A stretch of DNA of 44,960 nt, taken from Actinomycetota bacterium. Lineage in GTDB: Bacteria; Actinomycetota; Acidimicrobiia; Acidimicrobiales; Ilumatobacteraceae. A program made the position numbers and the translations under genes. Where the stretch lies: positions 1 through 44,960 of the forward strand of contig JAFMFM010000001.1 of the NCBI GenBank assembly GCA_017856115.1, written 5' to 3'. Below, piece by piece: positions 22,024 through 27,349 of the stretch. Position 1 is the stretch's first letter. Every line of letters begins with the position of its first letter. Below the pieces are notes generated by a model. The model did not search any database and had not been told where the DNA came from. It saw only the letters and a list, made by a program, of their open reading frames with translations.

Positions 22024-22054
22024 GACGTTCGGAAAGGGCGTTTCGTTGAACGTC
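22024..22054. terminator. Possible bidirectional hairpin after mtrA and dinG
   Basis: An inverted repeat GACGTTC ... GAACGTC, 7 bp each arm, spans the short convergent gap. A weaker inner GAAA/TTTC pairing lies between the arms. No T-run follows, so termination is only a guess. Confidence 0.35.
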
Positions 22055-23936
22055 ACGACGTGCGACGAACGAAGAAGTCGGCAACTCGTTCGAGCGAGTT
22101 CGTCTCGGGCATGTGCGACACGCCGTACAGCACGGCACCCTTGTATCTCTTGGTGGACAGACGCGGATCGAGTATCGCCACGACCCCGTGATCGGTGGCC
22201 GTGCGGATGAGCCGACCGGCGGCCTGTGCGAGTGACGCCGCTGCGATCGGCACATCTACGTGCATGAACGCCGCCGGACCCGCTTCGTCTCGACGCGCAT
22301 CGAGGAGCGGGTCCTTCATTGCAGGGAATGGAACCTTGTCGAGGATCACCATCCGTAGGGCGTCTCCCGGTACGTCAACGCCCTGAAAGAAGCCACGAGT
22401 CGCAAAGAGGCAGGAGGCATGGTCGTCGCGGAATGCGTCGAGGAGCGCCTTCTTGGGCATGTCGTCCTGGCGGTACAACCTGATTCCGGATCCGAGCTTC
22501 CCCTCGAGTGCGTCGGCAGTGTCGCGCAGCACGCTCCAACTGGTGAAGAGAACCAGTGCAGAACCGCCGGACAGGCTGATCAATTCACGAATGCGTTGCT
22601 GCAAACGTGCCGGTCGGGCAGGGTCGTTGGGTGGGGGCAGGTCGTCGGCGAGGTACAGCAGAGACTGTTGTGCGTAATCGAACGGGCTCGCAACACGCAG
22701 GATGTCGTCGTCATCCAACGACAATCCGAGTCGACGTGGTAGTCCGGGCGGAATGGTTGCGCTGGTGAGGATGGCGGTGGTTTCGTCCCACACGCGATCG
22801 AGCACGTGGTCGACCCGCTTGGGAGCGGCCGTCAAACGTGCGGCACCGCGCACGTCGAGGACGAACAGCACCATGTTGCTGCCGCCGGAAAGCACCTTGG
22901 AGAGCGATTCCTGGAGGCGAGCGATCGTCGACGTTGCGCGGAGCAGTTCTGGGGTTTCGGTGGTCGTCGCTCGTAACTCGTCGAGGATCAGTCCGCACTG
23001 GCTTGCGGCATTGCCGATCACGCCGTGTATGTCCGATGGCAGTGGTTGAGGGAGGCGTTGTCCGGAATGGCGAGTCAACACTTCGTCCAACTCCTTGCCG
23101 GTTTTGGCCAGTGCGTTCGGGAGTTTCTGGCGTGACAACGCCTGACGCGCCGATTCGGCGGCGGTTGCAATCATTCGACCGGTGAGCGAAACGGACGCCG
23201 TCTCGCTGATGACGTCCTCGAGTTCGTGGACTTCGTCGAACACCACGACGTCGTGCGGCGGGAGGAACTCCCGTTCTTGTTCGAGATCCAGACCGTACAG
23301 CGTGAAGTTCACCACGATGACGTTGGCATTCTTGGCTCGTTCCCGCGCGCGCTCGGTGAAGCAGGTCTCGCCGAACGCGCACTTGGCGGCACCGGGACAC
23401 TCGTCGGATCCGAGACTCACCTTGCGCCATGCCGAGTCACCGACCGGAAACGGCACGTCGGAGAGTTCGCCCGATTCGGTGCGGTCGGACCACTCGACGA
23501 GCTGGTGTACTTCGCGCGCGACATCCCGCGGCACGTCACCGAGCGGCAGTTGGTCATGGCCCGTGGCGATCTCCGACACGCGCTGTCGACACAGGTAGTT
23601 GTTGCGACCCTTGAGGATCGCCCAGGAGAACGACAGATCAGGGTCATCGTCGCACACGGATTGCAGGAGCGGCAGATCGACACTGGCAAGTTGATCCTGC
23701 AGGGCCTTGGTGTAGGTCGCGATGACGGCGGTCCGCCCGGCGGCCAGAATGGGAACCAGGTAGCCGAGCGTCTTGCCGGTCCCGGTGCCGGCTTGCACCA
23801 CGAGGGTGCGGCCCGAGTCGATCGCGTCGGCGACGTGGCGAACCATGTCCGCCTGGCCAGCGCGCTGTTCGGCGTGCTGCAACCGGGCGATGACCGTGTC
23901 GAGCAGGGAGAGCGCCGACGATGCCGCCGGCGTCAT
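22053..23936 (-). CDS. DinG/XPD-like ATP-dependent DNA helicase
   Basis: A 627-residue superfamily 2 helicase from ATG 23936 (MTPAASSALS). Walker A is QAGTGTGKT near residue 46. The 4Fe-4S cluster region shows CRQRVSE, then CPGAAKCAFGETC, with four suitable cysteines. The DEAH box appears as DEVH in VVFDEVHELED, and motif VI-like sequence is GRLIR near the end. The closest type is the DinG-like helicase of actinobacteria, which unwinds damage-related DNA or R-loop structures. It is 13 nt downstream of uppS in the same direction. Confidence 0.92.
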   Translation of the reverse strand: MTPAASSALSLLDTVIARLQHAEQRAGQADMVRHVADAIDSGRTLVVQAGTGTGKTLGYLVPILAAGRTAVIATYTKALQDQLASVDLPLLQSVCDDDPDLSFSWAILKGRNNYLCRQRVSEIATGHDQLPLGDVPRDVAREVHQLVEWSDRTESGELSDVPFPVGDSAWRKVSLGSDECPGAAKCAFGETCFTERARERAKNANVIVVNFTLYGLDLEQEREFLPPHDVVVFDEVHELEDVISETASVSLTGRMIATAAESARQALSRQKLPNALAKTGKELDEVLTRHSGQRLPQPLPSDIHGVIGNAASQCGLILDELRATTTETPELLRATSTIARLQESLSKVLSGGSNMVLFVLDVRGAARLTAAPKRVDHVLDRVWDETTAILTSATIPPGLPRRLGLSLDDDDILRVASPFDYAQQSLLYLADDLPPPNDPARPARLQQRIRELISLSGGSALVLFTSWSVLRDTADALEGKLGSGIRLYRQDDMPKKALLDAFRDDHASCLFATRGFFQGVDVPGDALRMVILDKVPFPAMKDPLLDARRDEAGPAAFMHVDVPIAAASLAQAAGRLIRTATDHGVVAILDPRLSTKRYKGAVLYGVSHMPETNSLERVADFFVRRTS

Positions 23937-23949
23937 TGCGTGGGTGCGG

Positions 23950-24654
23950 TCATGTGGTGGCACCGTGATCGGGTTGGGCCGTCTTTGCCACCAACGCGAG
24001 CGCCTCATCGAGTTGAGTTGCGCCGAAGTCCGGCCACGAACAATCGGTGAAGTACACGCGTGCATTCGCCGCCTGCCACAGGAGGAAGTTGGAGACGCGA
24101 GATTCACCCGAGGTGCGAACCAGCACGTCGACGGGCGGAAGCGCGGGGTCGTACATCTCGGTGGTGACCGAGTCGACGTCGAGTGGATGCGCTCGTCGAG
24201 CGGCCCGTGCAATCTCTGCGCGACTGCCGTAGTCGAACGCCACCGTCAGTACCATGCCGGTGTTGCCTTTGGTGTCCTCGATGGCCTGAAGGATTGCTCG
24301 TTGCACCGACTTCGGGGTTCGAGACCCCGGCTCATCGAAGGGCCGTCCAATCCAGTTGACGCGCACGTTGTTGGCGTTGAGTTCCTCGATTCGTCCGAAG
24401 AGTTTGCGGTGCAATCCGAGGATGTGGCGCACCTCGGATGGGGGTCGCACCCAGTTCTCCGTACTGAAACCGAATACGGTGAGCCATCCGATGTTGCGTC
24501 GTGCCGCGGTTCGTACCACGTCGGCGAGGGCCTCTTCTCCTGCCGTGTGTCCCGCGGTGCGGGGAAGCCCACGGCGTTTGGCCCAGCGACCGTTCCCGTC
24601 CATGATGCAGGCGACGTGGAGGCGGTGGGGCGTCGACGAGGCCGGAGAGTTCAT
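23950..24654 (-). CDS. uppS: Polyprenyl diphosphate synthase, catalytic subunit (UppS-like) lacking the RxG tail
   Basis: A 234-residue cis-prenyltransferase from ATG 24654. Canonical catalytic blocks are intact: CIMDGNGRWAKRRGL with catalytic Asp19, FGFSTENW, and RTSGESRVSNFLLWQ carrying Arg180, Glu184, Arg186 and Ser188. It elongates prenyl diphosphates with IPP to make the cell-wall lipid carrier. Two residues normal for bacterial homodimers are missing. The Glu of the usual AYAEL segment is Arg199 (AANARV), and the C terminus ends in a short tail without RRFGG, i.e. no RxG motif. Those features are found in the divergent partner at 24697. No frameshift restores RxG in other frames. Confidence 0.93.
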   Translation of the reverse strand: MNSPASSTPHRLHVACIMDGNGRWAKRRGLPRTAGHTAGEEALADVVRTAARRNIGWLTVFGFSTENWVRPPSEVRHILGLHRKLFGRIEELNANNVRVNWIGRPFDEPGSRTPKSVQRAILQAIEDTKGNTGMVLTVAFDYGSRAEIARAARRAHPLDVDSVTTEMYDPALPPVDVLVRTSGESRVSNFLLWQAANARVYFTDCSWPDFGATQLDEALALVAKTAQPDHGATT

Positions 24655-24696
24655 GGTGTGCCGTACGAAACTAGTTCCTAGTGCGAGGATGTAACG

Positions 24697-25272
24697 GTGG
24701 TCGCCGCTGCATCGTTGTCCCATCTCCTGTTGTGCGCCGGGTCGGTCGGCGAGTGGGCGGACACCTCGCCCGAGCAATGGCGGGCACGAATTGATCTGGT
24801 GGCGCGGGTCGCGCAGGCGGGCGGCGCCGAATGGGCAACGATCATCCCGACGCACGGTGGTGCCGACGGCGAAATCGAATCGATTCGGCATGTCTTGCAG
24901 ACGTCGTGCGGAGGGGTTCGGTACGCGAATCGGGTCGTGGTGCTGAGCGAGGCTGGCGTGACGATCATCGTGGACCCGCTCGCCGACGGGAAGCAACGAA
25001 TCGTCGATGCCGCAGCGCGCGTTGCCTCGTCGAGCGGGATAACCGAGGATCGTCTCTCGGCTGCAATCACCGCACCCGCCCCGAACGAACCGGATCTGGT
25101 GATCGTCCTGGGCGATGCCACCACGATGCCCGGATCATTGGTGTGGGAGTTGGCGTATGCGGAGCTCGTCTTCCTGGATGCTCCCTGGACGGCGCTCGAC
25201 GCCGAGCATCTCGAGATGGCGATCGACGACTTCACGCGTCGCGACCGCCGATTCGGTGGCGTGGATTCCTGA
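24697..25272 (+). CDS. Degenerate cis-prenyltransferase-like protein, candidate NgBR/Nus1-type partner subunit
   Basis: A 191-residue protein from GTG 24697 with a GAGGAT ribosome-binding sequence about 8 nt upstream. Similarity to UppS is clearest at the C terminus: PDLVIVLGD, then LVWELAYAELVFLDAPW, and a final RRDRRFGGVD. Aligned with E. coli UppS, the catalytic Asp26 position falls in CAGSVGEW (Asp lost), Arg194 becomes Val137, Glu198 Ala141, Arg200 Thr143 and Ser202 Pro145. Glu213 is kept as Glu156 and the RxG motif as R185-F-G187. It cannot catalyse alone but keeps what a partner subunit supplies in trans. It is divergent from uppS by 42 nt and shares one base with the recO start (TGATG). 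Confidence 0.82.
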   Translation: MVAAASLSHLLLCAGSVGEWADTSPEQWRARIDLVARVAQAGGAEWATIIPTHGGADGEIESIRHVLQTSCGGVRYANRVVVLSEAGVTIIVDPLADGKQRIVDAAARVASSSGITEDRLSAAITAPAPNEPDLVIVLGDATTMPGSLVWELAYAELVFLDAPWTALDAEHLEMAIDDFTRRDRRFGGVDS

Positions 25273-26000
25273 TGCCGCTGTACCGCGACGTCGGCGTGGT
25301 CCTTCGCACGCACAAACTCGGGGAGTCCGACCGAATCGTCACCCTGATCACCCAGGACTCGGGCAAGGTCCGGGCCGTCGCGAAGGGTATTCGCAAGACC
25401 ACGTCGAAATTCGGCTCGCGTTTGGAGCCGATGAGTCACGTTCAGGTACAGCTGTATCGCGGTCGCGAACTGGACATCGTGAACCAGGTGGAACTCGTGG
25501 AGGTGACGACGGCGACCCGTCGCAACCTGGAGGCCACCACCGACGGCCTCGCCATGTGCGAGGTGGTGGAGCAGCTCGCACATGAACGCTCGCCGAGTCC
25601 GCACCTGTACCGGATGCTGGTGGGGGCGCTTCGACAATTGAACTCCGAGTACTCCGCGCTCCTCCTGCCAGCATTGCAGTTGCGCCTGCTCCAGGAAGAG
25701 GGTGTCGGACCGTGCGTCGACCGGTGCATCGTCTGTTCCGGCACCGAAGACCTCGTGGCGATCGACGTGCAAGGTGGCGGAGTGCAATGTCGCCATCATC
25801 GACGCGGTACGGCGATCTCGCCACGCGCCCTCGCAATCCTGCAGGAGGTACTGGACGGTCGAATCACTTCGGTCGTTCGCAATAACGACCTGCCCAACGA
25901 CACGGTGCGGGAAGTGGTGTCGTACGGACGAAGCGCAATGGAGCACCACTTGGAGCGTCGGATTCGGTCGTCGTCGTTGTTCGAGGCGCCGCGACCGTAG
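25272..26000 (+). CDS. recO: DNA repair protein RecO
   Basis: A 242-residue protein starting at ATG 25272, overlapping the preceding stop by one base. The N-terminal OB fold begins LYRDVGVVLRTHKLGESDRI and includes KGIRKTTSKFGSRLEP. The zinc region follows in the middle, CVDRCIVCSG with a later C in VQCRHH. RecO mediates RecA loading with RecR in recombination repair. Its position in the classical era-recO-uppS-glyS neighbourhood is preserved, but the order of strands is altered. The long in-frame upstream reading from 24831 overlaps the preceding gene out of phase and is rejected. Confidence 0.94.
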   Translation: MPLYRDVGVVLRTHKLGESDRIVTLITQDSGKVRAVAKGIRKTTSKFGSRLEPMSHVQVQLYRGRELDIVNQVELVEVTTATRRNLEATTDGLAMCEVVEQLAHERSPSPHLYRMLVGALRQLNSEYSALLLPALQLRLLQEEGVGPCVDRCIVCSGTEDLVAIDVQGGGVQCRHHRRGTAISPRALAILQEVLDGRITSVVRNNDLPNDTVREVVSYGRSAMEHHLERRIRSSSLFEAPRP

Positions 26001-26041: not shown

Positions 26042-27349
26042 GTGCCGGCCAAGGAACTCGAGGACATAGTCAACCTGGCAAAGCGCCGGGGATTCGCGTT
26101 TCCGAGTGCCGAGATCTATGGCGGGTTCCGGTCGTCGTATGACTACGGTCCGCTCGGTGCACTCATGTTGCGAAACGTGAAGGACGCATGGATTCGCTCG
26201 ATGGTGCAGTCGCGCAGCGACGTGGTGTTGATCGACGCCGCAATCCTGAATCCGCCGCAAACCTTCGAAGCCAGCGGCCATCTGGCCAATTTCAGCGATC
26301 CACTGGTGGACTGCACCGTCTGCAAGCGGCGATTCCGGCAGGACCAACTCGAGTCACGCGACTGTCCGCAGAAGATGAAGGGGTGCACCTTCACCGAGGC
26401 CCGTGCCTTCAACCTGATGTTCAAGACGCATGCGGGGCCCATCGAGGGTGCCGGTGCGGAGGTGTATCTGCGACCGGAGACTGCGCAGGGCATGTTCGTG
26501 AACTTCGCCAACGTGCTCTCCACGAGTCGTAAGAAGCCACCATTCGGAATCGCGCAAGTAGGCAAGAGTTTTCGCAACGAGATAACTCCCGGGAACTTCA
26601 TCTTCCGAACTCGCGAGTTCGAACAGATGGAACTCGAATTCTTCGTGCCCCCCGCCGAGAGCGCGAAGTGGTACGACTACTGGAAGAACGAACGTCTGGA
26701 GTGGTACGTGGCGCACGGAATTCCCCGTGGGATGTTGCGCCTGCGCGAACACGACAAGGACGAACTCTCGCACTACTCCGCGGGCACGTGCGACATCGAG
26801 TTCATGTTCCCGTGGGGATGGGGTGAACTCGAAGGAATCGCACAACGTACCGACTACGACCTCACGCAGCACGCGAAGCATTCCGGGCAGCGACTCGACT
26901 TCTTCGACCCGACGACCAACGAACGATACGTGCCGTACGTCGTCGAGCCGGCGGCCGGCGTCAATCGAACGATGGCCGCATTCCTCCTGGCCGCCTACGA
27001 CGAGGACGTCGTGAACGACGAGCCGCGTACGGTCCTGCGTCTCCACCCGCGAATCGCGCCGTACCAGGTGGCGGTGCTTCCGCTGTCCAAGAAGGACACG
27101 CTCTCGCCCGTGGCCGAGCGGGTCCACGGCATGCTGTCGGGCAGGTACATGTGCGACTACGACGAAACACAGGCAATCGGTCGTCGTTACCGGCGTCAGG
27201 ACGAAGTGGGTACGCCGTGCTGTGTGACGGTGGATTTCGACACGCTGAACGACGATGCGGTCACGGTGCGCGATCGCGACACCACCGAGCAGGTTCGTGT
27301 TCCGATCGCATCACTCGTTGCGCACCTCGGCGAGCGCTTCGGTTTCTGA
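26042..27349 (+). CDS. glyS: Glycyl-tRNA synthetase (class II, alpha2 type)
   Basis: A 435-residue class II aminoacyl-tRNA synthetase of the dimeric GlyRS type. Early sequence RRGFAFPSAEIYGGFRSSYD contains class II motif 1 context. A zinc-binding-like insertion has CTVCKRRF and later CPQKMKGC. Motif 2 lies in FRNEITPGNFIFRTREFEQM, and motif 3 in the VEPAAGVNRTMAAFL region. A C-terminal anticodon-binding domain begins near LHPRIAPYQVAVLPL. It charges tRNA-Gly. The start codon is GTG, leaderless. Length is normal for actinobacteria. Confidence 0.96.
   Translation: MPAKELEDIVNLAKRRGFAFPSAEIYGGFRSSYDYGPLGALMLRNVKDAWIRSMVQSRSDVVLIDAAILNPPQTFEASGHLANFSDPLVDCTVCKRRFRQDQLESRDCPQKMKGCTFTEARAFNLMFKTHAGPIEGAGAEVYLRPETAQGMFVNFANVLSTSRKKPPFGIAQVGKSFRNEITPGNFIFRTREFEQMELEFFVPPAESAKWYDYWKNERLEWYVAHGIPRGMLRLREHDKDELSHYSAGTCDIEFMFPWGWGELEGIAQRTDYDLTQHAKHSGQRLDFFDPTTNERYVPYVVEPAAGVNRTMAAFLLAAYDEDVVNDEPRTVLRLHPRIAPYQVAVLPLSKKDTLSPVAERVHGMLSGRYMCDYDETQAIGRRYRRQDEVGTPCCVTVDFDTLNDDAVTVRDRDTTEQVRVPIASLVAHLGERFGF

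Follow-up and report, generated by a model that had tools for sequence, protein, structure and literature searches.

Two neighbouring, divergently oriented genes in the window, the whole analysed stretch of 44,960 nucleotides from an Actinomycetota bacterium of the family Ilumatobacteraceae, encode proteins related to UppS, an essential bacterial enzyme and a target for antibiotics (Table 1). One, here called CAT, is a UppS-like protein and putative catalytic subunit, and the other, here called PAR, is a degenerate UppS and putative partner subunit. A dinG-like helicase gene follows CAT on the same strand, and recO-like and glyS-like genes follow PAR; these three names were given by recognition of the sequence, in the case of dinG without a family search.

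Table 1. Features of the CAT/PAR locus, in window positions; residues of E. coli UppS are given as equivalents.
Feature	Position	Strand	Basis
dinG-like helicase gene, after CAT on the same strand	22053..23936	-	named by recognition; beside CAT in relatives
CAT, putative catalytic subunit, UppS-like, 234 aa, without RxG and Glu213	23950..24654	-	PF01255, TIGR00055, predicted fold
CAT Arg199 codon, corresponding in position to E. coli Glu213	24058..24060	-	alignment
CAT Asp19 codon (E. coli Asp26; D in 82/82 catalytic sequences)	24598..24600	-
Divergent intergenic region between the CAT and PAR start codons, 42 bp	24655..24696	.
PAR, putative partner subunit, degenerate UppS, 191 aa; Tyr154, Glu156 and C-terminal RRFG retained	24697..25272	+	PF01255, fold
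PAR Glu156 codon (E. coli Glu213; E in 77/77 partners)	25162..25164	+
PAR Arg185-Phe186-Gly187 codons, RxG motif (R and G each in 76/77 partners)	25249..25257	+
recO-like gene, conserved neighbour	25272..26000	+	named by recognition; synteny
glyS-like gene, conserved neighbour	26042..27349	+	named by recognition; synteny

The start of the dinG-like gene was taken as the ATG at 23936, which is 13 nt past the CAT stop codon (23936-23952), and the start of the recO-like gene overlaps the PAR stop codon (TGATG, positions 25270-25274). From these two junctions each subunit gene may head its own operon, and the short divergent region could serve both operons. A promoter scan of this 42-bp region gave no match to the sigma-70 consensus. 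Over 95 pairs, with start codons chosen by a script, the gap between CAT and PAR had a median of 73 bp.

CAT matched the PF01255 profile at 1.3e-62 (211.7 bits) over positions 1-209 of 219, the match ending before the RxG motif, and scored 197.3 bits against the uppS equivalog TIGR00055, above its curated cut-off of 109.55. An earlier note on this DNA, made from the sequence alone, had suggested a search of PAR against PF01255; the protein matched at 2.4e-12 (47.3 bits, profile positions 125-219), which like the CAT score passes the Pfam cut-off of 27 bits and identifies PAR as a degenerate UppS. Against TIGR00055 it scored 32.3 bits, below the same curated cut-off, and is not a uppS equivalog. 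The predicted single-chain model of CAT (pLDDT 90, pTM 0.87) aligned over 215 residues with S. pneumoniae UppS 5kh4 (VIA-align Z 29.3, rmsd 3.2), and structural alignment gave 40% identity to E. coli UppS. The corresponding model of PAR (pLDDT 91, pTM 0.88) matched the T. fusca cis-prenyltransferase 7cpn (Foldseek 2.2e-07) and E. coli UppS 2e9a (VIA-align Z 12.8, rmsd 3.4, 169 aligned), and the predicted fold is accordingly that of a cis-prenyltransferase across nearly the full length; in the tail, from about residue 181, the block means of pLDDT drop to 59 and 44. NgBR was not among the 50 matches listed in the fold comparison of PAR, which excludes nothing.

The central claim of the earlier note was that the active-site residues are divided between the two proteins, and the sequence of the window agrees with it in every residue named. 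Asp19, Arg180, Glu184, Arg186, Ser188 and Arg199 are all present in CAT, whose chain stops 24 residues past WPDF without a C-terminal RxG, and Val137, Thr143, Pro145, Glu156 and Arg185-Phe-Gly187 are found in PAR. Neither chain carries Asp26, Glu213 and a C-terminal RxG together, the combination that marks a homodimeric bacterial UppS (E. coli numbering is used from here on, with R194, E198, R200, S202, E213 and R242-F-G244 counted along the 1x08 alignment). The same residues were followed through aligned sequences of 34 intact UppS (of which 30 come from other families and 4 from Ilumatobacteraceae), 82 CAT and 77 PAR, which were drawn from loci L001-L122 with identical proteins counted once.

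Asp26, Asn28, Arg30, His43, Ser71, Asn74, Arg77, Arg194, Glu198, Arg200 and Ser202 were invariant in both the intact UppS and CAT, the site formed by Arg194/Glu198/Arg200/Ser202 being kept in 82/82 CAT. Asp26, which every one of the 82 CAT sequences has, was replaced by Gly in 77/77 PAR; Arg194 was found in 0/77 PAR, Ser202 had become Pro in 76/77, and the alignment showed PAR to be missing about 60 residues that belong to the cavity helices. The reverse was seen for Tyr211 and Glu213, both invariant in intact UppS and present in 77/77 PAR: Tyr211 was replaced in at least 80/82 CAT (by Gly in 55) and Glu213 was absent from 77 of them. RxG was present in 34/34 intact UppS and 76/77 PAR and its Gly in 0/82 CAT, and a permissive pattern match to R.G within the C-terminal 25 residues succeeded in 1/100 CAT proteins. 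Some site residues persist on the other chain, namely Glu213 in 5/82 CAT, Arg200 in 32/77 PAR and Ser71 in 22/77 PAR, and the first two of these were counted against a heteromer. Intact UppS has 67 invariant columns; CAT kept 49 of them and PAR 16 (kept meaning in at least 90% of the sequences), and PAR retained 10/18 of the columns lost from CAT compared with 6/49 of those kept by CAT (Fisher p = 6e-4). CAT and PAR have each lost much of what the other kept, and given that this reciprocal pattern extends across 82 CAT and 77 PAR sequences, the pattern in the window is not a matter of chance.

Both genes are under purifying selection. Pairwise NG86 comparisons of hand-picked close relatives, some of the pairs sharing a sequence, gave a median dN/dS of 0.096 for CAT, where 20 of 25 pairs were usable, and of 0.129 for PAR, where 23 of the 24 computed were usable and the maximum was 0.278. 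The lack of catalytic residues and of the cavity helices would fit a PAR that is merely a decaying and functionless uppS pseudogene, but this reading was rejected on the median over these 23 pairs. The invariance of 15 columns over 74 PAR sequences at 41% mean column identity (Gly15, Trp20, Asp133, Pro145, Trp150, Glu151, Leu152, Tyr154, Glu156, Val158, Arg182, Arg184, Arg185, Phe186 and Gly187 in PAR numbering) and the near-universal presence of the gene likewise speak against decay, to which we give practically no credence.

Among the findings that the earlier note had named as telling against it were a partner without a fold match to cis-prenyltransferases (see above), a second complete UppS elsewhere in the genome and an RxG-less UppS without a partner in related genomes, and the checks on these three points did not refute it. 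In the genome of the window (1.67 Mb, 77 contigs, 95% complete) PF01255 matched only at CAT and PAR, and no further UppS was found by the same search in three single-contig genomes of the family (G006, G134, G302). A survey of the order gave a PF01255 match in 191/198 genomes, typically one match near 1e-80 in other families; among the seven sampled members of the family of the window, six had two matches, the best with E-values of 1e-62 to 2e-67, and the seventh (G161) had one. Within the family 208/221 genomes had a match, and the 13 without were all below 90% completeness. A high-quality set was defined as the 79 family genomes with at least 90% completeness and at most 5% contamination. 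Two of these (G319, G400) keep one intact UppS. Among the remaining 77, both genes, and with them the two putative subunits of a DHDDS/NgBR-like arrangement, were present in 76 and an intact UppS in none, and neither a further PF01255 gene above the cut-off nor an RxG-less UppS lacking its partner was found in any of them. The pair was detected by Pfam alone in 75/77: in G236 Pfam sees only CAT, the PAR gene being present with a few undetermined bases, and in G161, where PAR lies at a contig start, no CAT was seen. G350 has its CAT broken into two pieces on separate contigs, and in G280 and G384 the two genes are on different contigs from each other. The CAT/PAR pair marks nearly the whole family Ilumatobacteraceae.

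The limits of this distribution were examined with a profile made from the PAR alignment, searched against 296 genomes of the class with the matches ordered by E-value. Among the matches listed, PAR-type matches (at least 131 bits, starting at profile positions 4-12) came from 21 genomes, all within the 22 sampled family members, the only sampled member without one being G400; the matches that followed were ordinary UppS with at most 108 bits, the top ones starting from position 39 on. The same profile search had matched 20 genomes from other families at least twice each, and no similar split was found in them: 38/44 of their PF01255 matches were of full length (1-219) and the remaining 6/44 comprised 4 partial pieces and 2 marginal matches.

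A few genomes of the family depart from the common arrangement. G200 (77% complete, L127) has an intact CAT, and its PAR is seen in broken pieces only, close to the start of a contig, possibly owing to sequence error, to the contig end or to real decay. In G223 (L126) more than 2 kb separates CAT and PAR, compared with the usual gap of less than 170 bp, and a second CAT lies on another contig. An intact UppS and neither member of the pair is found in G401 and G308, both of which fall below the high-quality threshold. In G308 (L036/L120/L128) this sole PF01255 gene groups with those of G400/G401, the sampled genus-mates mostly having the split pair, and this genome, 72% complete, gave no match to recO; either replacement of the pair or mis-binning is possible.

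If the two proteins work together, their product could be something other than the lipid carrier, for instance a short-chain or modified cis-prenyl compound, the carrier then coming from an unrecognised enzyme. Product length is not readable from sequence, which leaves room for such a reading, but the 77 split high-quality genomes, the three single-contig ones included, hold no extra PF01255 gene above the cut-off. MraY-type genes (PF00953), whose products use the carrier, were present in 4/4 family genomes tested (that of the window and the three single-contig genomes), so a polyprenyl carrier is presumably needed. In addition, CAT groups with the syntenic UppS clade and apart from a clade of deep second copies (see below). 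We regard a different product as very unlikely.

DHDDS generally lacks RxG, and in the solved human DHDDS chain the segment FLLWQTSHSC places His and Cys at the Tyr211 and Glu213 positions, with no RxG in the fragment shown. The solved NgBR chain keeps a Glu at the Glu213 position, within LTEI, as the earlier note had said, and ends in RLGK. The note had also stated that the pseudo-subunit supplies RxG in both DHDDS/NgBR and Rer2/Nus1; this holds for NgBR but not for yeast Nus1, in which Asn replaces the Arg of the motif (PMC7573591). According to the same source, the RxG tail of NgBR helps form both DHDDS substrate sites and NgBR binds no substrate of its own (PMC7573591), and in the M. tuberculosis enzyme MtDPPS the RXG Arg292 from the counter-subunit is described as contacting the catalytic Asp76 and the substrate (PMC6450523). 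CAT and PAR resemble the human chains in their division of residues: the catalytic subunit has the Asp and the IPP site, lacks RxG and has lost the Glu of the Glu213 position (Cys in DHDDS), and the homologous subunit, probably non-catalytic to judge from its lost residues, keeps the Glu and a C-terminal RxG (RLG in NgBR). They differ in that the predicted CAT model lacks the long C-terminal domain of DHDDS, the PAR model lacks the N-terminal membrane segment of NgBR, and the pair is bacterial and encoded by divergent neighbours. The homodimeric E. coli UppS and MtDPPS (Rv2361c) belong to the same fold and family as CAT and PAR, but E. coli UppS carries on one chain the Asp26, Glu213 and RxG that CAT and PAR split over two proteins. 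Another prokaryotic two-subunit cis-prenyltransferase is the archaeal MM_0618/MM_1083 of M. mazei, mentioned as a heteromer likely serving a glycosyl carrier lipid (PMC8131916). A 2020 review assigns homodimeric cis-prenyltransferases to bacteria and plants, and names fungi, metazoa, plants and animals as typical for the heteromeric kind (PMC7839719), and in the accessible portions of the open-access literature no example of a bacterial heteromeric enzyme was found.

A further M. mazei enzyme, MM_0014, also lacks RxG like CAT but is an active homodimer, unlike the heteromer proposed for CAT/PAR, and the passages of that paper concerned with it describe no degenerate partner (PMC8131916). The loss of RxG alone is therefore no proof of a heteromer, and CAT might act by itself as an RxG-less homodimer, with PAR as an accessory or regulatory paralogue that does not complete the active site. 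The weakly active homodimers described for human DHDDS by itself (PMC7573591) would fit this, as would the substrate-site residues listed above, all of which are intact in CAT. Such an arrangement would however leave unexplained the invariance of RRFG, Tyr211 and Glu213 in PAR, the reciprocity of the losses and the co-occurrence of the genes in 76/77 genomes, and we consider it improbable. The weight of the argument for a heteromer is carried by the reciprocal pattern together with co-occurrence and synteny.

Homology, predicted fold, residue partition, co-occurrence, synteny and selection are shown by the analysis. The explanation that we consider best is that CAT and PAR are very probably the two subunits of an independently evolved, probably obligate heteromeric cis-prenyltransferase, which would supply cell-wall synthesis with its polyprenyl diphosphate carrier. 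CAT would bind the allylic substrate, Mg and IPP through Asp26, the equivalents of Arg77/His43, and Arg194/Glu198/Arg200/Ser202, and would hold the growing chain. PAR, with a UppS fold without the cavity helices, would associate one to one with CAT by packing where the second UppS chain normally sits, and its C-terminal RRFG tail, with Tyr211/Glu213, would reach over and close the CAT active site. The reading of CAT as the one active site and of PAR as its closing tail in trans follows the analogy with MtDPPS and DHDDS/NgBR, in which RxG acts in trans, and with the same division seen in the human chains. That Tyr211 and Glu213 would also act in trans is suggested by the way they travel with RxG.

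The gene order points to how the pair arose. In outgroup loci uppS precedes recO on the same strand in 29/30 cases (uppS> recO>), with a divergent dinG before UppS in 13, and the family member G319, which has an intact UppS, has the order dinG< UppS> recO> glyS>. The split genomes have dinG< CAT< PAR> recO> glyS>. By this comparison PAR occupies the ancestral uppS place before recO and CAT is the extra, inverted copy. PAR lay divergently beside CAT in 95/100 fetched CAT stretches (in one of them as broken pieces; a few genomes were fetched twice), and the five exceptions were two stretches at contig ends (L040, L105), one with an additional copy of CAT (L038), L039, a G200 stretch too short to include the PAR pieces more than 2 kb away, and G295, where PAR lies about 9 kb from CAT on the same contig. 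In G400 and G401 dinG and recO are side by side with neither CAT nor PAR between them, and the intact UppS is elsewhere.

In a protein tree a branch with 100/100 support set CAT (26 rows) apart from all other sequences, and another with 100/100 did so for PAR (24 rows), both on long stems, and the program warned of long branches meeting. A related tree did not support the deep second UppS copy found in other Acidimicrobiia as the source of CAT: CAT lay, on a long stem, with the clade of syntenic UppS (97/91), and the second copies formed a group of their own (100/100). The trees within Acidimicrobiia and the synteny suggest that the Ilumatobacteraceae pair arose separately from the eukaryotic heteromer. 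We propose that uppS was duplicated once, near the base of the family, as an inverted copy between dinG and uppS, and that through complementary losses the copy at the old place would have become PAR and the inverted copy CAT. A tree built quickly from the markers recO, dinG and glyS (83 rows) placed G319 with G400/G401 nested inside the split genomes, on starred branches, and such nesting would call for a second gain or a reversal; with a thinned marker set of 46 rows a single clade of split genomes was not rejected (AU p = 0.101). A single gain that followed the separation of the G319/G400/G401 genera, or a later replacement, is possible. This nesting, G308, G200, G161 and the MM_0014 homodimer were counted against the heteromer or its single origin. 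Taken as a whole, an apparently undescribed bacterial UppS heteromer that arose by independent inverted duplication and complementary loss, divides its work as DHDDS/NgBR do and is the only UppS of nearly all Ilumatobacteraceae appears likely to us.

If this is true, an essential lipid-carrier enzyme of a water-living actinobacterial family is shared by two genes, with the reaction centre on one and the closing tail on the other, in an arrangement known from humans and yeast and apparently undescribed in bacteria. The pair would be a genetically simple counterpart, without the membrane segment, of the disease-linked human DHDDS/NgBR, and G319 offers for comparison a relative with an intact gene still at the ancestral place. 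The cause of heteromery, the role of RxG and Glu213 in trans and heteromery as a determinant of product length would thereby become testable.

Two further observations concern genomes outside the family or named as such. Four genomes of only about 1.1 Mb from family f65, a different family within the class (G415, G420, G434, G437), have two full-length, deeply diverged UppS genes, at loci L248, L249, L253, L255, L257, L258, L259 and L261. The best 80 of 167 confirmed related stretches bore the titles Ilumatobacteraceae, Ilumatobacter or other Acidimicrobiia, and a PAR-type protein was also encoded on contigs of public MAGs (L155, L178 and L179) whose titles, for example Ferrithrix and Bifidobacterium breve, look like wrong names.
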